Positions 2,094 to 35,583 of a stretch of DNA of 64,000 nucleotides are shown here, piece by piece. The notes below the pieces were generated by a model that was not told the origin of the DNA, made no database searches, and saw nothing but the letters and a program-made list of their open reading frames with translations. Numbering within the stretch: position 1 is the stretch's first letter; each line of letters starts with the position of its first letter. Location: NCBI RefSeq assembly GCF_900156875.1, contig NZ_LT707409.1, positions 2,641,057 to 2,705,056 on the forward strand, read 5' to 3'. Made by a program: the position numbers and the translations under genes. This stretch comes from Robertmurraya dakarensis (GTDB taxonomy: Bacteria > Bacillota > Bacilli > Bacillales > Cytobacillaceae).

Positions 2094-2170
2094 TGGCGGT
2101 CCGGACGGGACTCGAACCCGCGACCTCCTGCGTGACAGGCAGGCATTCTAACCAACTGAACTACCGGACC
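2094..2170 (-). tRNA. tRNA-Asp (GTC)
   Basis: Full cloverleaf: acceptor GGTCCGG/CCGGACC, anticodon loop CTGTCAC, T-loop GTTCGAGTC, with CCA encoded. Last gene of the array. Confidence 0.97.
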
Positions 2171-2227
2171 AGAGATTTTTCGAGGTACGAGAAAATATCT
2201 TTCCTTCTCTTCCTTGAAAAAACTTGA

Positions 2228-2311
<84 letters not shown>

Positions 2312-2430
2312 TAACATAGTATTTCCTATGCTTATAGTGAACATAATGACTGTCCCGATCTCTAGAAGCTTACTCAAGCAGCAATTTCGATCGGTACAAC
2401 TCGCAGTATTTCAATGAAGCATATGCTCGT

Positions 2431-2454
2431 TGCTCCACCCCGCGATAATATTAT
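2431..2454 (-). pseudogene. tRNA-fMet 5' remnant (repeat copy 2)
   Basis: An exact 24-base copy of the tRNA-fMet 5' end and its flank, followed on the minus strand by unrelated sequence, so no cloverleaf can form. The segment between the copies (2312-2430) resembles no tRNA and holds no convincing gene. Probably left by a duplication or recombination inside the tRNA array. Confidence 0.7.
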
Positions 2455-2462
2455 AATTTTAA

Positions 2463-2555
2463 TGGCGGAGGAAGAGGGATTCGAACCCCCGCGCGGTTTA
2501 ACCCGCCTGTCGGTTTTCAAGACCGATCCCTTCAGCCGGACTTGGGTATTCCTCC
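2463..2555 (-). tRNA. tRNA-Ser (TGA)
   Basis: Class II tRNA with a long variable arm; acceptor GGAGGAA/TTCCTCC, anticodon loop CTTGAAA, discriminator G and encoded CCA. Confidence 0.96.
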
Positions 2556-2567
2556 GCAAAATATAAC

Positions 2568-2644
2568 TGGTGGACCTTGTAGGACTCGAACCTACGACCG
2601 GACGGTTATGAGCCGTCTGCTCTAACCAGCTGAGCTAAAGGTCC
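2568..2644 (-). tRNA. tRNA with CAT anticodon, probably tRNA-Ile2
   Basis: Cloverleaf GGACCTT/AAGGTCC with loop CTCATAA and encoded CCA. A separate elongator tRNA-Met follows at 2654 and the initiator at 2228. From its close resemblance to the Bacillus form, this third CAT tRNA is most likely the isoleucine tRNA whose C34 is changed to lysidine by TilS. Methionine identity cannot be excluded from sequence alone. Confidence 0.75.
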
Positions 2645-2653
2645 TAATTTAAA

Positions 2654-2730
2654 TGGTAGCGGCGGAGGGGATCGAACCCCCGACCTTACGGGTATGAACC
2701 GTACGCTCTAGCCAGCTGAGCTACACCGCC
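2654..2730 (-). tRNA. tRNA-Met (CAT), elongator
   Basis: GGCGGTG acceptor, loop TTCATAC, encoded CCA; near-identical to the typical Bacillus elongator tRNA-Met. Confidence 0.9.
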
Positions 2731-2754
2731 ATGAATTATTATAATGATATTTAT

Positions 2755-2830
2755 TGGTGGAGCCTAGCGGGATCGAACCGCTGACCTCCTGCGTGCAAGG
2801 CAGGCGCTCTCCCAGCTGAGCTAAGGCCCC
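2755..2830 (-). tRNA. tRNA-Ala (TGC)
   Basis: Acceptor GGGGCCT with a G-T pair to AGGCTCC, including the G3-T70 alanine identity pair; loop CTTGCAC; CCA encoded. Confidence 0.96.
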
Positions 2831-2846
2831 AATATATTCTACATAA

Positions 2847-2923
2847 TGGTCGGGAAGACAGGATTCGAACCTGCGACCCCTTGGTCCCAAACCAAGTGCT
2901 CTACCAAGCTGAGCTACTTCCCG
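2847..2923 (-). tRNA. tRNA-Pro (TGG)
   Basis: Acceptor CGGGAAG/CTTCCCG, loop TTTGGGA, CCA encoded. Confidence 0.96.
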
Positions 2924-2937
2924 TATTACTTAAATAA

Positions 2938-3011
<74 letters not shown>

Positions 3012-3048
3012 ATAGAAGGTAAGTATTTTACACTTTCAAGAAAAACAA

Positions 3049-3137
3049 TGGTGCCGAGGACCGGAATCGAACCGGTACGGTAGTCACCTACCGCAGGATT
3101 TTAAGTCCTGTGCGTCTGCCAGTTCCGCCACCCCGGC
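3049..3137 (-). tRNA. tRNA-Leu (TAA)
   Basis: Class II tRNA; acceptor GCCGGGG, loop CTTAAAA, long variable arm, CCA encoded. Confidence 0.96.
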
Positions 3138-3142
3138 TTACT

Positions 3143-3217
3143 TGGAGCGGAAGACGGGATTCGAACCCGCGACCCCCACCTTGGCAAGGTGGTGTTCTAC
3201 CACTGAACTACTTCCGC
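3143..3217 (-). tRNA. tRNA-Gly (GCC)
   Basis: Acceptor GCGGAAG/CTTCCGC, loop TTGCCAA, discriminator T, CCA encoded. Confidence 0.96.
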
Positions 3218-3245
3218 AAATAATAAAGGTCAATACACAAAACTA

Positions 3246-3330
3246 TGGTGCGGGTGAAGGGAGTCGAACCCCCACGCCTTGCGGCGCTAGATCCTAAGTC
3301 TAGTGCGTCTGCCAATTCCGCCACACCCGC
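3246..3330 (-). tRNA. tRNA-Leu (TAG)
   Basis: Class II tRNA; acceptor GCGGGTG, loop CTTAGGA, long variable arm, CCA encoded. Confidence 0.96.
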
Positions 3331-3363
3331 ATAATGAAAGCTATTTGCTATTGCAAAAAACTA

Positions 3364-3439
3364 TGGTGAGCCATGAAGGACTCGAACCTTCGACCCTCTG
3401 ATTAAAAGTCAGATGCTCTACCGACTGAGCTAATGGCTC
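3364..3439 (-). tRNA. tRNA-Lys (TTT)
   Basis: Acceptor GAGCCAT/ATGGCTC, loop CTTTTAA, CCA encoded. Confidence 0.96.
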
Positions 3440-3520
3440 ATAAAAATAACCAATTACTACATTTGAAACAAATACATCAACGATGTTCCCATTATTTATT
3501 TCACGCTTAAGAACATGTTT

Positions 3521-3600
3521 CAAAGTCCTTAGGACTTTGTCGCAGATTTTAAAAGATGCCATTCGGAGAAGAAATGCTTCGATGTAGCATTTTTAAAATC

Positions 3601-3602
<2 letters not shown>
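3521..3602. repeat. Inverted repeats in the Lys-Thr tRNA spacer
   Basis: The 161-base spacer between tRNA-Lys and tRNA-Thr is by far the longest in the array apart from the fMet-Ser gap. It holds a 19-base palindrome CAAAGTCCTTAGGACTTTG (3521-3539). It also holds a perfect 12-base inverted repeat, CAGATTTTAAAA (3543-3554) with TTTTAAAATCTG (3591-3602), enclosing 36 bases. The right arm ends inside the tRNA-Thr CCA. There is no coding sequence. Confidence 0.7.
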
Positions 3603-3676
<74 letters not shown>

Positions 3677-3686
3677 ATAATGTATA

Positions 3687-3762
3687 TGGTGGAGGATGAC
3701 GGGATCGAACCGCCGACCCCCTGCTTGTAAGGCAGGTGCTCTCCCAGCTGAGCTAATCCTCC
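3687..3762 (-). tRNA. tRNA-Val (TAC)
   Basis: Acceptor GGAGGAT with ATCCTCC, loop CTTACAA, CCA encoded. First gene of the array, 16 bases after the predicted transcription start. Confidence 0.96.
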
Positions 3763-16238: not shown

Positions 16239-17078
16239 TCACAACCGCGGCGAGTTAAAACTTGTAATATCAGCTTGCTGATCATTTATTTTTAAAAGAA
16301 CCATCGTTATATCGTCCTTTTGAGGAAGTCCTTCTGTAAACTCAATGATGGAATCCATTACACATTTCTCTAATTCTCCAACATCTTTTTCTATATGCCT
16401 TATAAGTGTTTGAATCAGGCGTTTCAATTGATATTGTTCACCTTCTTGATTCATTGCTTCGATGATTCCATCAGTGTAAAAGAAAATAGTATCCAGACTA
16501 TCTAATTTTACAGATTCTTCTTCATATTCTTGATTCGGCAGGCCACCTACCATAATCCCTTTTACCTTAGGAAGTTCATTGATTTCATGGCTCTTTCCTC
16601 TAATAAAAAGAGGAAGGTGATGCCCAGCATTAGCATAGCTAAATATCCCTGTTTGCGGGTCCCAATCTGCACAAAATAAGGTAACAAAGGAACGCAATGT
16701 TCTTAGATCTTCATAAATAGCCTGATTCATCGCTGTTAATGTTTCACCAGGTCCTTGCGTACTTTCTGCCGCACTGCGAAACGCTCCTCTAGTTAAAATC
16801 ATCAGCATGGCAGCTGGAATCCCCTTGCCCATTACATCGCCGATCACAATCCGAATTTTTCCATTCACTAATGGATAAAAGTCATAATAATCTCCGCCAA
16901 TTAACCTTGCGGGAAGAGTATTCCCAGATACTTCGCCCCCCTCGAATGTCGGTGTTTTTCCATTTAAAAGCTTCGTTTGGATATTCCTAGCGATGTTAAT
17001 TTCCCGTTGCAATGTTTTATCAATTAATTGCTGCTCATCTTGTGTGTTTCTAACTGTAAGATTGTCTAAAATCATCAC
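16239..17078 (-). CDS. SpoIIE/RsbU-type PP2C phosphatase of the partner-switching operon
   Basis: A 279-residue protein: short N-terminal coiled coil (about 10-40, QREINIARNIQTKLL) and a PP2C phosphatase domain. Metal-binding residues are present: GGDYYDF (61-67), GDVMGKGIPAAM (80-91), YTDG (201-204) and KDDITMVLL (254-262). RsbU-like enzymes dephosphorylate the serine of STAS anti-anti-sigma proteins. The ATG overlaps the stop of the STAS gene by 4 bases, so that STAS protein is its likely substrate. Last gene of a six-gene operon. It lacks a sensory input domain of its own; input probably comes from the HAMP protein two genes upstream. Confidence 0.9.
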   Translation of the reverse strand: MMILDNLTVRNTQDEQQLIDKTLQREINIARNIQTKLLNGKTPTFEGGEVSGNTLPARLIGGDYYDFYPLVNGKIRIVIGDVMGKGIPAAMLMILTRGAFRSAAESTQGPGETLTAMNQAIYEDLRTLRSFVTLFCADWDPQTGIFSYANAGHHLPLFIRGKSHEINELPKVKGIMVGGLPNQEYEEESVKLDSLDTIFFYTDGIIEAMNQEGEQYQLKRLIQTLIRHIEKDVGELEKCVMDSIIEFTEGLPQKDDITMVLLKINDQQADITSFNSPRL

Positions 17079-17392
17079 ACACCCTCCAATTGGAGGGTAT
17101 TCAAAATCTGATAAAGTCCGACTGTTTCAAACACTTCATTTGTCAGTTCATCAACACCCTGAAGTTCAAGCCTAAACTGTTTCTCTTGAGACAGATAGAT
17201 CGCATTCATGATGGAACCAATGCCGGTAGAATCAATAAATTCTAATTTACTAAAATCAATCACAAGTGTTTTAACCGTTCCTATGTTTTCTAAATAATCA
17301 TCTATTACACCACTTGTTGAAATATCCAATACCCCTTGAAGCGTAAAGATAGTAGTCAAACCTTGTATTTCTTTTTTAACTTTTAGACTCAA
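17075..17392 (-). CDS. STAS-domain anti-anti-sigma-type protein (second of two)
   Basis: A 105-residue STAS domain. The phospho-acceptor motif EFIDSTGIGS places the switch serine at residue 55. Family members (RsbV, SpoIIAA) bind a GHKL kinase when unphosphorylated and release its partner. Here both the kinase (18607-19584) and phosphatase (16239-17078) are in the same operon. The gene is 16 bases after the HAMP sensor and overlaps the phosphatase gene. It is the one coupled to the phosphatase, so I infer it is the dephosphorylated form that carries the signal. Confidence 0.9.
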   Translation of the reverse strand: MSLKVKKEIQGLTTIFTLQGVLDISTSGVIDDYLENIGTVKTLVIDFSKLEFIDSTGIGSIMNAIYLSQEKQFRLELQGVDELTNEVFETVGLYQILNTLQLEGV

Positions 17393-17408
17393 CTAATTTC
17401 CCTCCCCT

Positions 17409-18518
17409 TTATAGCTTAAAATTACTCATTCTCTCGAGCATTGTATTTGAAATAAAAGATAATTCTCTCGATTGTTCATACAAAGATTGCAGTAAATCTG
17501 ATAGTGTAATCGTAATATTTGTTGTAGCAGCGGTATATTGATTAGCCCTTTCTCGCATCTTACCCATGCTCTCTAAAATATCCTGAACATTTTCATCATG
17601 ATTATATGGAATCAATGTCATTTCAACTTTTTTTAAATAATCATTTATTTCATCTAATTGTTCTCTGGCATCTATCGTTATTTCTGTTGATAGTTCGTAA
17701 ATTCTTTCTAAGGAGTCGGATGCCTCAGACTCTAATTCCTCTGAAAGGACTTGCGTTTTTACTGCTTGCTCCTGAGTATCCTTTATAAACTTGTTTATAT
17801 TATCTACCATGATATTCGTAGTAACAGAAAGCGAAGAAAGTTCACCCGCATTAAGGACTTGACTCTTTACCGTTAAATCTCCCGTTTCCAGTATTCTTAT
17901 CTGTTTTATAATTTTCTTGATATTTTCATAGATTTTATCAAAAAATTTAATCGTCATTATAGAAAGAACAATTAGTGACACAAAACTTGAAATTACCAAA
18001 ATAATTGAGTGACGGTAAATTTGGCCTGTCACTTGGTTGTAATCCATGGAAATATATATCACTTGTCCATTCTCCACTTGTAAATATAACTTCAGTACTT
18101 TTTCACCATTTATTTTTTGTATACTTTTCTCTTTCCCTTTTTCACCAAGCTTTTTGATCATTTCTATATCCTCCTCTGATAAAAACCCTAAAGGAGGAGC
18201 GTTTTGCTTCTCTAAATCGGTATTCTGAAATTCTTTTAAATCAATGACAGTGATATCATGAATAAACGTATGATCTCTTTCCATTTTTTGAATCCAAAAA
18301 TTCAAGCCAACTTCATCGGTAAATCCATATGATTCCTGTGCTTCAAAATACGCGTTGATACCATGTACAATAATCGTTGACCATGTTTCCAGTTCATGCT
18401 TCACTTGCATATTAATAAAATATAATTGCAGACTCCCTGAAATGATTGTGATGATCATTAGAACCGTTAACATTCTAATGATAAATTTCGTTCTCAAAGA
18501 TGAGATTCTTAATTTCAA
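17409..18518 (-). CDS. Two-pass HAMP sensor with chemoreceptor-like coiled coil
   Basis: 369 residues. TM1 at about 12-34, extracytoplasmic domain 35-169, TM2 about 170-192, HAMP-like region about 192-245 (ETGDLTVKSQVLNAGELSSL), then helical coiled coil to the end. The C-terminal part looks like a receptor stalk but lacks the conserved MCP tip ([17 protein letters not shown]), so it is not a CheA-coupling receptor. No kinase, GGDEF or other enzyme domain follows. In this operon it most likely passes an external signal to the phosphatase or the GHKL protein by direct contact. I do not recognise a named family for the extracellular domain. Confidence 0.8.
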   Translation of the reverse strand: MKLRISSLRTKFIIRMLTVLMIITIISGSLQLYFINMQVKHELETWSTIIVHGINAYFEAQESYGFTDEVGLNFWIQKMERDHTFIHDITVIDLKEFQNTDLEKQNAPPLGFLSEEDIEMIKKLGEKGKEKSIQKINGEKVLKLYLQVENGQVIYISMDYNQVTGQIYRHSIILVISSFVSLIVLSIMTIKFFDKIYENIKKIIKQIRILETGDLTVKSQVLNAGELSSLSVTTNIMVDNINKFIKDTQEQAVKTQVLSEELESEASDSLERIYELSTEITIDAREQLDEINDYLKKVEMTLIPYNHDENVQDILESMGKMRERANQYTAATTNITITLSDLLQSLYEQSRELSFISNTMLERMSNFKL

Positions 18519-18606
18519 AGTAAAATCCCCTTTCCCCCATATATCATTTTGCTCATTGGTGAAGAGTTACTTTGTGATCCTTCCTCGGTCCATTCGGCGG
18601 TGTTTA

Positions 18607-19584
18607 TCATTTCTTTAAAATACTGACAGAACTCAGTATTTCTTCACTTTTCCGCGTCCCAAGATCGAATATTAGAATGAGAGTGGATCCTTTTGGAGAA
18701 GTGTATAACAAGATTTGTTTTGCCATTTTCCTCATGATCGTAAACCCTTGCCCCATCGATCTTTTCGTTGAATACCCTGATAAAAGAATTTTCTTAGGTA
18801 AATCTTCAAGAGGAAATCCCGGTCCTTTATCTTGAATAACAAAAAGCAGTTCATTTTGTTCGTCATTTTCTATCAGTATCAATTGGCCTTCTTCAGCATG
18901 CTTGATCGTATTCGTAATCGCTTCAGAAAGTGCTAATAACCAGCTCATCATCTTAGCATTGGCGAGCCCCTTCTTTTCCAGTACTTTTTGAACAGAATTT
19001 CGAGTTTTGGGAATATCTGATCTCTCCTTTATCGTGCCGTTGCAGAGAATATTTCCTGTTAAATATGCTGTTGCTTCTCTTTCTGAAATGAGCATAAACT
19101 GACCTTGAGTAGCAGCGAACATAACATCGCGATAAATTCTCCACTCATTTTGTTTTTCTTCCGATAAATGAATTTTTTCGTGTTCCATTGCCAAAGTAGA
19201 TTGTAAAAAAAGATCTCTCCTATGTACCTCATAAACCTTCATCATTGCATTTTGTATTTTGATATGAATATCCAGGTCCATGATTTTCTTTTGAATATCT
19301 TCATTTCGTTTATTCCATTCCAACATTTGTTGTGACAGATAAAGGATAAGTTCATTTTCATTTTCAAAATTAACTTGAGAAAATGATACGTTCTTTAATG
19401 AAGAATAAAATAATTTATCCCATTCTAACGATTCCAACCCAAGATATTGGCCTATTTTCTTAGCGAGATATCCTCGATTAGTTTTATAGATCAATTCTTT
19501 GTAGGAAACATCTAACGGCGGAGACGGTAGCTCAATATATTTTGTCTCAGTGGATTTCTTATACTTACTAAAAAGCCGTCTCAA
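18607..19584 (-). CDS. GHKL ATPase (RsbW/anti-sigma kinase-like) with unknown N-domain
   Basis: 325 residues. The C-terminal third is a HATPase domain: N-box SEAITNTIKHAEEG (E221, N225), G1 box DKGPGF (252-257), G2 box GYSTKRSMGQGF (270-281). Residues 1 to about 190 contain an alpha-helical region (MLEWNKRNEDIQKKIMDLDIHIKIQNAMM) that I do not recognise. There is no histidine phospho-acceptor H-box, so this is the serine-kinase type that phosphorylates STAS partners, as RsbW, SpoIIAB and RsbT do. Unlike RsbW it is more than twice the usual size. It lies between two STAS genes; no sigma factor is nearby, so its target is open. Confidence 0.85.
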   Translation of the reverse strand: MRRLFSKYKKSTETKYIELPSPPLDVSYKELIYKTNRGYLAKKIGQYLGLESLEWDKLFYSSLKNVSFSQVNFENENELILYLSQQMLEWNKRNEDIQKKIMDLDIHIKIQNAMMKVYEVHRRDLFLQSTLAMEHEKIHLSEEKQNEWRIYRDVMFAATQGQFMLISEREATAYLTGNILCNGTIKERSDIPKTRNSVQKVLEKKGLANAKMMSWLLALSEAITNTIKHAEEGQLILIENDEQNELLFVIQDKGPGFPLEDLPKKILLSGYSTKRSMGQGFTIMRKMAKQILLYTSPKGSTLILIFDLGTRKSEEILSSVSILKK

Positions 19585-19677
19585 CGGTCCTAAGCCTCCT
19601 TAAAAACCTTTTTGTAATAAGAGGAAAAACTCACCAATAATTTTTGGAGAGTTTTCCCTAAAAGTTATCACCTTAAA

Positions 19678-20004
19678 TTAATTTAACGATAAATAAACTT
19701 TTTCTCTCAAGATTTCATCAAGTTGAAGGATTTCAAAAACCTCTCTTACCATAGGTTGTATTTTCTTTATTTTGATCTGAACATCCTCTTGGTTGTTTTT
19801 TAGTGAATCAATCAGATTCAGCAATAGACCAATACCAGTCGAATCCACAAACGGAACTCCATCAAAATCTAACTCAACACAAGCAAAATTCATTAATGCT
19901 GGGATAATTTCATCTTCAATTAATTCTGAGACCTCTATATCAAAATCCCCATTAAATTGAACTGAAACAGATTGATCTATTTTGTCTAATTTGTATGTAA
20001 ACAT
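19678..20004 (-). CDS. STAS-domain protein (first of two)
   Basis: A 108-residue STAS domain with the phospho-acceptor motif PFVDSTGIGL, serine 55. The N-terminal strand FTYKLDKIDQSVSVQFNGDFDIEVS is typical. It lies 23 bases after the FapA-like gene and 93 before the GHKL gene. The pair of divergent STAS proteins in one operon recalls RsbS plus RsbV, one being a scaffold and one the antagonist, but assignment of roles is inference. Confidence 0.88.
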   Translation of the reverse strand: MFTYKLDKIDQSVSVQFNGDFDIEVSELIEDEIIPALMNFACVELDFDGVPFVDSTGIGLLLNLIDSLKNNQEDVQIKIKKIQPMVREVFEILQLDEILREKVYLSLN

Positions 20005-20027
20005 TCCTATAGCTCCTCTTCCTAAGG

Positions 20028-22100
20028 TTAAAAGACTAATCTTGCATTTTCGTCTAACCTAGCATTGATGTTCCTGCACTCCTCCTGAAATGTATGCTTT
20101 ACTTTTCCTATTTGAATTACCGTGCCTTCTCTAGCCAGGTCCATTCTAATCTTCCCATCACTAGGCACAATAATTTTATTCATAACACCACCTTCTGAGC
20201 CGGATTCCCTAATGTTCACTCCCTGTGCAGAATAGATTTCTCCCCCTCGAAAGACACCGTTAATATCGACAACTCCGCCAGCGTGAATTTTGGAATTATA
20301 GCACCCTTGTCCACTAATACGGACATCTCCGCCAGAATAGATATGGCTATTTAGTGCATAGCTTAGGTGTATAAAGCAGTCCTTGTCTTGATCCTCAGCA
20401 TATTGTCCTATCATTTCTGCTAAATTCTTCTCCAAAGCGATCATACTGTCAAAAGAATGATATTCATTCATGACTGTAGAAAAAAAGCACGATTTCAATT
20501 GTCCTGCTAGGGCTAGCCATTGATGATCTAAAAGATGATTTCCTTTTTGGCTCAAAGAGATAAACTGTTTCACACTTGTACCTAATAATTTAAACTTCTT
20601 TTCTATCAAGATTTTTATGAGAGGAAGCAGTCCTTTCTTGCCATGATCTGTCATTTTTAGAGCTGGCAAGTTCATTAACTGTTCTATCGTTAAGATCATC
20701 TTTTTCATCTCTTCTTGAATATTTCTTAGTAGATAAACCATTTGTGAGGCAAAAATATTTTGTTTTCCAGCTGAAATCATACTGCCAATTGCATTTCCGC
20801 GAATGACAACATTCGTATTAGACGAGACCGATGCAGAATAGACATTTTTAAAAATCTCAACATTTCCTTCTGCTTCTACCATCATTCCATCCTCTACATT
20901 TCCAAGCACATCAATGTCACCTTTAAAACGGATATTTCCAGATGAAATATTCACTTCACCGCGATGAACTAATTTTTCAATAATCGAGACCTTTGCCATT
21001 AACCCATTTTGTTCAAAAAAGGGACGCCCCTTTTCTGTTGCAACCAGCTTGTTTTGACTTTCTAAAAAGGTAATCCCTTTTCCACACTGAACAACAAGAG
21101 GATAGGTCTGTTTCGGAGGAATCGGTTCGTTTGTAACTGTATACCCTGGTATCCCTGGAACAGGCTGATGGATCTTAGCGACTACTTGGCCCTTTTGTAC
21201 AGTAGGGATCACTTGAATATCTCGGAAATCCACTGTACCGTTTGCACGTTCTTTTAAACCCATTTTCTTTTCGGTTTCTACAATGAGCTCAATTCTGCCA
21301 TTTTTACCTTCTTTAGGACTTACCCCGCTGGCAATTGTAAATGTCCCTGGTGTATCCGTATTAACAGCTTTCATAATTTCACTGTGATTAAAACCGTGGA
21401 TCACCCTTAATTCATTTAGTGCTTGCAGTATTTCTTTATACTCTAAGTCATTTATAATCTCGACAGTCTCTTCAGCTTCCAAAACAATATGATAATCCGG
21501 TTCAATGTCCTTTATTTTGCTTGTCTTTTTCATCCCAGGTTCGATATGCAAGTAGACATTTAACTTCTCGGAATCCATCGTTATATTCCATATGGTATCT
21601 TTACTATCATCCTGTGTTTGAATTTCAAATCTGTCTTCTTTTGTAGCAATGGTTGAAAGCGCAATTTGTTCATTATTCTTTAAAAGCTTGATTCCATTGC
21701 CAACAGAAATTGTCGGATAGTGAAGCTCTGACGGCTGACAGTAAATCTGACCTTCCTTAACCCATACCTTCCCACCAAGCTGTTCATCAGGGCGATGTTC
21801 ATCGGCCTTGGCGTTCATTGAGACAAGTTCGACCTTTTTATCTGCCAATCCCAAATTGTCGACAACCTTCTCAATCACAGCGAGATCCACTGACATCGAA
21901 GCACTTTCACGATGGGTACTATTTGCTTTGATTTTCGTTAATTTTACTACTGCCTGTCTTGACCTTAACTGCAAAAATCCTTTAGTTTCTTTCTGAATGA
22001 TTTCGATGGCGGCTTCCTCTTTACCGATCCCTAACAAATCCAGTCCGAGTTCTATTGCTTCCCTAACATTTTTTCCTTTTGAAAGAATCGTTTGTTCCAT
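20028..22100 (-). CDS. FapA family (DUF342) protein with Jag-N-like start
   Basis: 690 residues. The first ~55 (ILSKGKNVREAIELGLDLLG, then the basic RSRQAVVKLTKI) resemble the Jag N-terminal domain, found with RNA-associated proteins. The FapA/DUF342 region follows, including the GVSPKEGKNGRIEL and AKIHQPVPGIPGYTV segments. Beta-helix-like repeats come next (NIRFKGDIDVLGNVEDGMMVEAEGNVEI, and again near 610-650 with SGGDVRISG), interrupted by a helical insert. FapA was named for an effect on polar flagella in Vibrio; the function in Bacillus is unknown. First gene of the operon, so it may be the output or scaffold of the partner switch. ATTTCCC-rich leader gives GGGAAATGG before the ATG. Confidence 0.82.
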   Translation of the reverse strand: MEQTILSKGKNVREAIELGLDLLGIGKEEAAIEIIQKETKGFLQLRSRQAVVKLTKIKANSTHRESASMSVDLAVIEKVVDNLGLADKKVELVSMNAKADEHRPDEQLGGKVWVKEGQIYCQPSELHYPTISVGNGIKLLKNNEQIALSTIATKEDRFEIQTQDDSKDTIWNITMDSEKLNVYLHIEPGMKKTSKIKDIEPDYHIVLEAEETVEIINDLEYKEILQALNELRVIHGFNHSEIMKAVNTDTPGTFTIASGVSPKEGKNGRIELIVETEKKMGLKERANGTVDFRDIQVIPTVQKGQVVAKIHQPVPGIPGYTVTNEPIPPKQTYPLVVQCGKGITFLESQNKLVATEKGRPFFEQNGLMAKVSIIEKLVHRGEVNISSGNIRFKGDIDVLGNVEDGMMVEAEGNVEIFKNVYSASVSSNTNVVIRGNAIGSMISAGKQNIFASQMVYLLRNIQEEMKKMILTIEQLMNLPALKMTDHGKKGLLPLIKILIEKKFKLLGTSVKQFISLSQKGNHLLDHQWLALAGQLKSCFFSTVMNEYHSFDSMIALEKNLAEMIGQYAEDQDKDCFIHLSYALNSHIYSGGDVRISGQGCYNSKIHAGGVVDINGVFRGGEIYSAQGVNIRESGSEGGVMNKIIVPSDGKIRMDLAREGTVIQIGKVKHTFQEECRNINARLDENARLVF

Positions 22101-22395: not shown

Positions 22396-23595
22396 TTGGG
22401 ATGTGAAAAAGTGAATAATAATAAAATTTGGCTCCTCAGCATTAGCATGACCATTTTTATCGAAGTAATCATATTCTTTAATATTGATAGTTGGAAGGTA
22501 CCGTTCGTCTTTTACCTGCTGCCGTTATTATCATTGATTCCTATTTTTACGGCAGATAGTAAACTAAAAAGACTAGTAGATAATCGTAATAAAGATGTTC
22601 AGGCATTAACCGGCAGAATCAATTTATTAGAAGAGAAACTAGAGGATTATCAATATTTCGAAAAAGAATATCGGAACATTTTGGATCAAAATCAAGGTTA
22701 TATATTCTCATACAATACGGATGATCAAAGAGGGTTTATATCCAGCGAATTTAAGCAGGAAACTGAAATGACGATAGAAGATTTCGCTCTCTCCTTAAAA
22801 GCGATCGAAGAAAATATTCATGAAGAAGATAGAGCCCGATACTTAAAAAAGAAACAACAATGGATGGCAGGTGTACCTGTAAACATTGAATTTAGAATGA
22901 TACTAGGAGAAGAACAAATTCACTGGAAAGAGCTGCGAGCCTCTTCCAAGATGACAGAATCCGGGGAAGGCAAAAATATTACTGGGATGATAATTGATAT
23001 CACAGATAGAAAAGTGAAGGAAGAAAGATTGTCACAAATGGCATTCTATGACAGTCTGACCGACCTCCCAAATCGATCGATGCTGAAAAGTCATTTAAAG
23101 AAAGCACTATCTCGTGCAAGGCGTAAAGAACATGAAGTAGACATCATGTTCATTGATTTGGATGGCTTTAAAAGTATTAACGACACTTTAGGTCATGATG
23201 TAGGGGATTCCCTGCTGAAACAAGTCGCTGAACGCTTAATCGAAACTGTTCGTGAGGAAGATTTAATTTCGAGACTGGGCGGCGACGAATTTATCGTCGT
23301 ATTTGAAGAAACAAATAAGGAAGAAATAAGCGGCATTGCTGAACGAATCCTGCAAAGTATCTCGACTCCCTTCCTTATTGACGATAACAATGTTACTGTT
23401 ACGCCAAGTATTGGAATCGCTATCTATCCAGATAATGGATCAGATATCGAAGCATTAGTTAGAAATGCAGACAAAGCCATGTATTATGTTAAATCAAAAG
23501 GAAAAGGCCACTATGAATTCTACAGCACTGATTTGGATGATATCGTTCCAAAGAAGTCACTTTTCGACAAGGTTTTAAGTTTATTTCAAAAATAA
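22396..23595 (+). CDS. Membrane PAS-GGDEF diguanylate cyclase
   Basis: 399 residues: two N-terminal membrane helices (about 9-26 and 31-48), coiled coil (about 55-80), a PAS domain with PAC segment ending GMIIDITDRKVKEERLSQMAFYD, and a GGDEF domain. The active site GGDEF is intact, and RxxD (REED) lies five residues before it, the inhibitory I-site spacing. It should therefore make c-di-GMP from two GTP and be product-inhibited. An alternative start is the GTG at 22411 (V-NNNKIWLLS); neither start has a strong ribosome site. The gene ends at a shared terminator. Confidence 0.9.
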   Translation: MGCEKVNNNKIWLLSISMTIFIEVIIFFNIDSWKVPFVFYLLPLLSLIPIFTADSKLKRLVDNRNKDVQALTGRINLLEEKLEDYQYFEKEYRNILDQNQGYIFSYNTDDQRGFISSEFKQETEMTIEDFALSLKAIEENIHEEDRARYLKKKQQWMAGVPVNIEFRMILGEEQIHWKELRASSKMTESGEGKNITGMIIDITDRKVKEERLSQMAFYDSLTDLPNRSMLKSHLKKALSRARRKEHEVDIMFIDLDGFKSINDTLGHDVGDSLLKQVAERLIETVREEDLISRLGGDEFIVVFEETNKEEISGIAERILQSISTPFLIDDNNVTVTPSIGIAIYPDNGSDIEALVRNADKAMYYVKSKGKGHYEFYSTDLDDIVPKKSLFDKVLSLFQK

Positions 23596-35475: not shown

Positions 35476-35583
35476 CTTCTTATCTTTCAGCTTTCGCTGT
35501 GAGAATTAGCACCGTGCTCATACAAAATAAGTCGGTTGCCGGGCTTCATAGGGCTCTTCCCTCCACCTGCTCTTGATAAGAGA
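35476..35583 (-). ncRNA. SAM-I (S-box) riboswitch aptamer
   Basis: On the minus strand the conserved S-box blocks occur in order. P1 starts with TCTTATCAAGAG and GTGGAGGGA, then GCCCTATGAAGCCCGGCAAC, GGTGCTAATTC, and GATAAGA closes P1. Followed by a terminator and mtnW. It should shut off the salvage operon when SAM is plentiful. Confidence 0.95.

Follow-up and report, generated by a model that had tools for sequence, protein, structure and literature searches.

Partner switches of Bacillota are usually read as controls of sigma factors. Here we propose that a six-gene operon of Robertmurraya dakarensis is a reduced partner switch of this phylum, tied to cyclic di-GMP (c-di-GMP), that acts on a FapA-type (DUF342) protein instead of a sigma factor; we give this reading about an even chance. 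The operon lies in a stretch of 64,000 nucleotides, called the window below (C11:2641057-2705056 of a 5.48-Mb genome). In order of transcription, its six minus-strand genes encode the FapA-type protein, a small STAS protein (STAS1), a GHKL-type kinase, a membrane sensor, a second STAS protein (STAS2) and a PP2C phosphatase (Table 1). Open reading frame coordinates and the Pfam matches of each gene bear out the order and the gaps (23, 93, 88, 16 and -4 bases) given in an earlier note made from the sequence, the original prediction. The first gene belongs to the FapA family by its FapA_N and beta-solenoid FapA domains, and matches our own FapA profile at E=0.

Table 1. Features of the window operon and its flank, and riboswitches at switch-less FapA genes of relatives (the last five rows use the coordinates of the locus named).
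Feature	Coordinates	Strand	Basis and remarks
FapA-type protein, 690 aa	20028..22100	-	Jag_N (PF14804), FapA_N (PF20250) and FapA beta-solenoid (PF03961), all above Pfam cut-off; proposed output
STAS1 (FapA-side STAS), 108 aa	19678..20004	-	Pfam STAS; switch Ser55
Hairpin in the 93-base STAS1-GHKL gap	19614..19671	-	fold and sequence; probable remnant of a riboswitch terminator
GHKL switch kinase, 325 aa	18607..19584	-	Pfam HATPase_c_2; SpoIIAB/RsbW-like ATPase; helical N-terminal domain 28-158
Membrane sensor, 369 aa	17409..18518	-	HAMP sub-threshold; membrane-distal Cache lobe lacking in frame, junction near 18360
STAS2 (PP2C-side STAS), 105 aa	17075..17392	-	Pfam STAS; switch Ser55
SpoIIE/RsbU-type PP2C phosphatase, 279 aa	16239..17078	-	Pfam PF07228, 9.1e-50
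PAS-GGDEF diguanylate cyclase	22396..23595	+	Pfam GGDEF 1.5e-52, PAS match weak; divergent, outside the operon; possible c-di-GMP partner
Riboswitch at switch-less FapA, L203	8261-8344		
Riboswitch at switch-less FapA, L205	10615-10704		
Riboswitch at switch-less FapA, L198	10928-11012		
Riboswitch at switch-less FapA, L181	10924-11009		
Riboswitch at switch-less FapA, L195	10596-10690		

Judged by alignment, the window operon has the residues of a complete partner switch. As in RsbU-RsbV-RsbW systems, a SpoIIE-type phosphatase with metal aspartates, STAS proteins with a phosphorylatable serine and a GHKL kinase with its ATP boxes are all present, and the claim that these residues are intact was confirmed for each protein. 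Both STAS proteins carry the switch serine, residue 55, in a DSTG motif that is invariant in 18 of 18 aligned rows for each (the window included), and DSxG is kept in all 71 STAS1 and all 78 STAS2 proteins of relatives. The phosphatase aspartates D63, D81, D203 and D255/D256 are likewise invariant (18/18 rows), and four PP2C patterns are found in 79-80 of 80 relatives. In the kinase, E221, N225, D252, G254, G256, G278 and G280, which we take to be the N, G1 and G2 boxes, are invariant in 56/56 rows. Simple patterns recover the N, G1 and G2 boxes in 54, 55 and 51 of 55 free GHKL kinases of relatives and in 12, 17 and 8 of 17 full-length kinases of a second form, HD-GHKL, whose GHKL part carries a fused HD-GYP-like domain; when 13 of these 17 are aligned, the E, N, D and G residues at the matching positions do not vary. 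The closest PDB relatives of the window kinase are SpoIIAB and RsbW, both by profile search and by model and Foldseek. Its N-terminal domain is modelled as helical, and the low-rmsd Foldseek matches span the ATPase only; whole-length Foldseek matches, with rmsd near 20 Å, were set aside.

The operon is not peculiar to the R. dakarensis genome. A search with the GHKL protein hit 21 of 151 genomes at E<=1e-10, and the nearest relatives with the operon belong to the same genus, Robertmurraya kyonggiensis and R. yapensis, the PP2C of the window being 77-78% identical to both of theirs. An alignment scan with PP2C, one genome per species, found at least 568 relatives, and the best 80 were fetched as loci (numbered L below); these 80 are therefore the closest kin, not all. 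With genes labelled by their best phmmer match above fixed scores, and with some loci cut by edges, PP2C is present in 80, STAS2 in 78, FapA in 74, STAS1 in 72, free GHKL in 61 and the sensor in 57; a kinase of either form is found in 76. FapA is thus the most constant gene that is not part of the switch itself, and it also accompanies 17 of the 18 HD-GHKL kinases. Among the cases measured, STAS1 is the next gene after FapA in 71 of 73, and STAS2 the gene just before PP2C in 73 of 76, so that the gene order to be expected of a real system is conserved for both pairs in named members of Bacillaceae, Paenibacillaceae and further Bacillota. In two further loci (L185 and L209), GHKL, sensor, FapA and STAS1 are kept together while STAS2 and PP2C are absent, which also favours a link of the switch to FapA.

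The tie to c-di-GMP comes mainly from riboswitches of relatives. An Rfam c-di-GMP-I riboswitch or its GGC variant precedes the gene for FolE, which occurs in many of these operons, in 11 of 14 loci searched (L046, L047, L068, L070, L076, L079, L085, L098, L103, L115 and L121, not L090, L092 and L105). A covariance model made from nine aptamer matches (two of the nine lying elsewhere in L070 and L079) and run on the window and the 80 loci gave 81 matches, none of them in the window. When an aptamer on the same strand ending at most 700 bp upstream of an operon gene is counted, 55 of the 80 loci have a c-di-GMP-I riboswitch upstream: 31/44 with the pterin-type genes PTPS and short-chain reductase (SDR), 24/36 without these, and 14/17 with a full-length HD-GHKL. 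Since five genomes of the genus contain 4-10 such riboswitches each, the chance of one falling in any single 700-bp stretch is well under 1 in 100. Three Domibacillus loci carry these riboswitches in tandem upstream of the operon with pterin and switch genes (two copies at L076 1710-2008, two at L079 1833-2109 and three at L083 1181-1701). The HD-GYP-like fusions are a second sign of c-di-GMP: the 13 fused kinases that were aligned all have HD and HHE. DUF5317 is encoded near the HD-GHKL kinase in some operons (L061 7043-7579; L058 11671-12237); it occurs in 12 of the 80 loci, none of which has PTPS and SDR.

The same signs could be read as pointing to a diguanylate cyclase as the output, as in SiaABCD and HsbA-HsbD: a STAS protein would bind and switch the PAS-GGDEF protein, and FapA would be a co-expressed effector. 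The diguanylate cyclase gene of the window is divergent from FapA, head to head, and does not face the operon as had been claimed. A GGDEF-type match lies within the fetched flanks of 24 of the 80 relatives, 17 full-length kinases carry the HD-GYP-like domain, and precedents for such an output are named in the part of PMC8457831 drawn on here. Against this, 56 of the 80 loci have no above-threshold GGDEF match in their fetched flanks (some of them cut), the cyclase of the window stands outside the operon, and in L046 an MHYT histidine kinase sits upstream of FapA instead. We consider this output unlikely, and FapA, the constant neighbour, the better candidate for the partner of the switch.

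In many relatives, the operon has a longer form with genes of a pterin-type pathway. Tandem PTPS and SDR are encoded in the operon region of 44 of the 80 loci, and FolE in 40 of those 44; an alpha/beta hydrolase is usual in these operons, and an acyl carrier protein (ACP) and an acyl ligase are often found (over all 80 loci: SDR 45, PTPS 44, hydrolase 44, FolE 40, ligase 33, HD-GHKL 18). In L066 the order is FapA-STAS1-FolE-PTPS-SDR-GHKL-hydrolase-ACP-ligase-sensor-STAS2-PP2C, and other long forms commonly run from FolE to PP2C-FapA-STAS1. Compared with solved structures, the tandem PTPS matches in its second half 1b66 and 3i2b, which we take to be rat and human PTPS, at 8e-39 and 2e-38, and 6-carboxy-tetrahydropterin synthase chains far more weakly (5e-7 to 1.4e-6); this difference favours a biopterin-like product. 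The NCBI QueD model, which passes its cut-off over both halves (119.8 vs 89.25 bits), speaks against such a product. The reductase is a generic SDR whose best PDB matches are FabG-like, the sepiapterin reductase 2bd0 ranking lower (4e-27). In 32 of the 33 operons with ligase and hydrolase, the ligase comes after an ACP-like motif, and in the 33rd (L083) such a motif lies about 0.5 kb upstream; the ligase is a generic acyl/aryl ligase, and the hydrolase resembles 2,6-dihydroxy-pseudo-oxynicotine hydrolase and AntI. The original prediction had called the system self-contained: its switch parts are complete, as stated, but the commoner form adds an upstream riboswitch or the pterin genes at the frequencies given above.

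Compared with these relatives, the window operon looks like a reduced form, in which riboswitch, pterin branch and distal sensor lobe are missing and the switch core is kept. No RF01051 aptamer was found upstream of the operon when the whole 64-kb window was scanned. FolE, tandem PTPS and the reductase are absent from the window operon, as are the hydrolase, ACP and acyl ligase, and no tandem PTPS was found in the whole genome, where a single weak PTPS match (E 6.8e-5) falls in a 159-aa frame elsewhere. The predicted HAMP sensor is present; it is shortened by about 146 residues relative to relatives, and its HAMP domain scores 12.5 bits, under the cut-off of 25 (23.5 bits in the full-length counterpart of L046, and above cut-off in sensors of the more distant operons L050, L058 and L060). 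In the alignment, it lacks residues 54-199 of the 524-aa L066 counterpart as one clean in-frame gap, a piece that spans the stalk and almost the whole membrane-distal lobe. The L066 sensor is modelled as double-Cache-like (mean pLDDT 81.7, pTM 0.48; the fold class alone is used). Its top two Foldseek matches are whole-chemoreceptor models, and the next are mostly double-Cache ligand domains, among them Mlp24, McpH with uric acid, TlpC and Chlamydia RsbU (6mab). Among sensors of this first type, 2 of 5 from pterin-less operons lack the lobe (the window and L128, the only other such case), against 0 of 41 from operons with PTPS and SDR (Fisher p 0.0097, a post hoc test prompted by the window and made on related loci); it is present in the pterin-less L073, L101 and L111. 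The distal lobe as a strict marker of pterin genes was rejected, as it is recognisable, with lower scores, in pterin-less HAMP sensors of a second type.

A trace of the longer form may persist before the kinase gene. The hairpin there aligns with the riboswitch terminators of the nearest relatives, L046 and L047, at scores reached by 1/500 and 0/500 shuffles, respectively, with the caveat that terminators may resemble one another by chance; it is probably a remnant of the terminator behind the c-di-GMP-I riboswitch of relatives, and no aptamer was found beside it. The 88-base gap between GHKL and sensor resembles long-operon junctions no better than shuffles do. In the kinase tree, the two Robertmurraya kinases are the nearest to that of the window, which falls in a supported group of three with two pterin-carrying rows (SH-aLRT 97). 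A 27-row FapA tree places the window and the two Robertmurraya proteins with three pterin-less rows (two of them identical) without resolving the group. A 71-row FapA tree, in which the Robertmurraya relatives were missing, requires the pterin label to change 16 times, and well-supported branches force 13 of these changes. The label changes 11 times in the GHKL tree, and because 137 of 500 shuffles are as low, the kinase tree alone does not date a pterin loss. The trees do not show loss versus gain; we infer loss of riboswitch, pterin genes and lobe rather than gain.

If parts have been lost, the window operon could also be a decaying, functionless remnant of a system that works in relatives. 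The missing riboswitch, pterin genes and sensor lobe would agree with this, as would broken frames elsewhere: in L055 (6568-10157) the frames of GHKL and of the sensor are broken, with those of PP2C, STAS and FapA open, and in Oceanobacillus damuensis (L111 6050-7751) the riboswitch is kept and the PTPS, SDR and hydrolase frames are short, the pterin branch there apparently decaying. The window operon itself has six open frames with intact switch residues, and its phosphatase has the close identity to two Robertmurraya relatives noted above. We consider decay improbable.

The absence of a sigma factor from the operon, as originally claimed, was borne out. None of the 25 Sigma70_r2 matches of the genome lies in the window, and a search for SigB and SigF in open reading frames of at least 60 aa from 100 fetched loci (some places included twice) and the window gave a single match of 17 bits, judged spurious, to a GGDEF-type protein in L055; as a positive control, SigB and SigF each detect the other at about 1e-41. 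A cognate sigma factor encoded with the switch, as expected of an anti-sigma system, is thus lacking. That the switch instead feeds SigB or SigF, its STAS proteins and kinase cross-reacting with RsbW or SpoIIAB and FapA being a mere passenger, is improbable, given that FapA stays with the switch across genera and that a PP2C, a kinase and a STAS pair are all part of the cassette, even though the kinase has its best matches in SpoIIAB and RsbW and switch sets of both types are encoded elsewhere in the genome.

From the genes, residues and gene order, the riboswitches of relatives and the absences in the window, we infer a mechanism as follows. The membrane Cache-HAMP sensor would set the activity of PP2C through a cytoplasmic coiled coil. 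PP2C would dephosphorylate the STAS proteins, STAS2 being proposed as its first substrate because it is encoded as its partner gene, and the GHKL kinase would rephosphorylate them at Ser55. The phosphorylation state of STAS1 would then decide between its capture by the kinase and its release to act on FapA, and this beta-solenoid, scaffold-like protein may change its assembly or location in response; gene order points to FapA as the output. In relatives, c-di-GMP would set expression of the operon through the riboswitch, and the operon may make a pterin-type compound that serves as ligand of the sensor. A wider scheme is tentative, and we hold it with clearly less confidence: a c-di-GMP riboswitch may control synthesis of the cell's own pterin-derived signal, modified by ACP and acyl ligase, which is sensed outside by the double-Cache HAMP receptor and passed by the sigma-free switch to FapA. 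The window operon would then be a natural loss-of-signal form, without synthesis genes and distal lobe and with the switch kept.

Several observations weigh against a c-di-GMP-tied switch acting on FapA. The full-length FapA profile at E<=1e-80 is found in 89 of 397 genomes of the order and 53 of 136 genera. Forty FapA-anchored regions were chosen from the list of profile matches, the first 20 being mostly higher-scoring and some coinciding with PP2C-anchored loci. Kinases of GHKL type occur together with a STAS gene in 15 of the 40, and 13 of these 15 have PP2C as well; the 15 comprise 13/17 in L170-L186 and 1/22 in L187-L208, plus L209. The other 25 have no kinase, STAS or PP2C in the fetched stretch; FapA therefore does not need the switch, and FapA as its exclusive partner was rejected. 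The original prediction had FapA as the leading candidate for the partner held by the kinase; its constancy and its adjacency to STAS1 support this in part, and it is not solely a held partner of this kinase. Further, 25 of the 80 PP2C loci have no upstream riboswitch (some are cut by contig or fetch edges), and the window, which has no riboswitch and no distal lobe, gives no ground for assuming c-di-GMP control or ligand sensing there. Hydrolysis of c-di-GMP by the fused kinases is not assured, since GFP mostly replaces GYP after HHE (12 GFP, 5 GYP and 1 neither among 18). The hairpin could reduce transcription of the GHKL gene. FliG (FliG_C) is found in 43 of 43 FapA-positive genomes, taken from the 89, and in 42 of 43 FapA-negative genomes, and being nearly universal is uninformative on a flagellar link. 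The SigB-type set, which we take from gene order and recall to be RsbR-S-T-U-V-W-SigB-RsbX, and SpoIIAA-SpoIIAB-SigF make cross-talk possible.

FapA-anchored loci also tie FapA to c-di-GMP. An aptamer lies upstream of the switch operon in 5 of the 15 (L170, L171, L174, L178 and L200; several of the fetched regions stop at the first gene of the operon). Among the 25 FapA genes without a switch, 5 are immediately preceded by a c-di-GMP-I riboswitch of their own, or carry it at an over-extended start (Table 1). An MHYT histidine kinase and a LytTR regulator are encoded near five switch-less FapA genes (L172, L180, L189, L199 and L201). Our reading is that FapA is a c-di-GMP-linked effector under differing regulators, the partner switch among them, which favours FapA as the output, yet allows it to do without the switch.

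Outside the operon, the genome has a second FapA gene (G000:C10:1335804-1336613, L001) that a Sigma70_r2 match (C10:1334555) precedes by about 1 kb, presumably a flagellar or chemotaxis copy; a flagellar context of another FapA is described in the part of PMC11607428 drawn on here. The window also contains a SAM riboswitch (35477-35582, minus strand), which has no relation to the operon, and a cluster of 14 tRNA genes (2097-3762, minus strand).

Among the papers listed from the open-licence literature, we found no description of this gene set, nor of c-di-GMP riboswitches, a pterin-type pathway and FapA together, in line with the original prediction, which knew of no such set in Bacillus; searches there for partner switching with tetrahydrobiopterin or pterin, and for an operon of PTPS, GTP cyclohydrolase and SpoIIE, returned nothing. 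Among the papers listed for DUF342 and for a combined query, titles and abstract openings held nothing relevant. The mechanism would add a new variant to partner switching; should the pterin-derived signal prove real, the cassette would be of a new kind. In many named genera, it joins c-di-GMP riboswitches, a pterin-type pathway and FapA, and with FapA in more than a fifth of the genomes sampled from the order, the question of its function is not marginal. The joint absence of riboswitch, pterin genes and one lobe from the window leads to testable predictions on which part senses what.

The operon resembles RsbU-RsbV-RsbW and SpoIIE-SpoIIAA-SpoIIAB in its SpoIIE-family PP2C, its STAS proteins with a phosphorylatable serine and its GHKL serine kinase with intact ATP boxes. 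It differs from them in having no sigma factor in or near it, two STAS proteins, FapA in the operon, and a kinase that has a helical N-terminal domain or, among the relatives, an HD-GYP-like fusion. Chlamydia RsbU is related through its periplasmic domain, found among the structural matches of the L066 sensor; sensor and PP2C are presumably one protein there, whereas they are two in the window. The same difference separates the window from SiaABCD, in which we take the HAMP sensor and PP2C to be a single protein. SiaC-SiaD, HsbA-HsbD and BgrV-BgrR are partner switches with non-sigma outputs, and according to the part of PMC8457831 drawn on here they share with our operon a non-sigma partner and a connection to c-di-GMP; their partner is a diguanylate cyclase, whereas the gene constantly found beside our switch is that of FapA, and the connection to c-di-GMP is made chiefly by the riboswitch of relatives. 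Vibrio FapA binds EIIA-Glc solely when the latter is dephosphorylated, as given in the part of PMC6877527 used, so that there too FapA has a partner that binds in one phosphorylation state, a precedent for the mechanism proposed. That partner belongs to the phosphotransfer system of a gamma-proteobacterium, whereas the FapA of the window starts with Jag_N and has a STAS gene next to it. In PruA-PruR-DcpA of Agrobacterium, a pterin is linked to c-di-GMP control, according to the sections of the pterin review PMC13259868 drawn on here; a term search of that review did not find the words Bacillus, STAS or HAMP. PruA-PruR-DcpA is proteobacterial, has PruR in the periplasm and acts on a dual c-di-GMP enzyme, and if our proposal is true, pterin signalling, proteobacterial in that account, would gain a candidate home in Bacillota.

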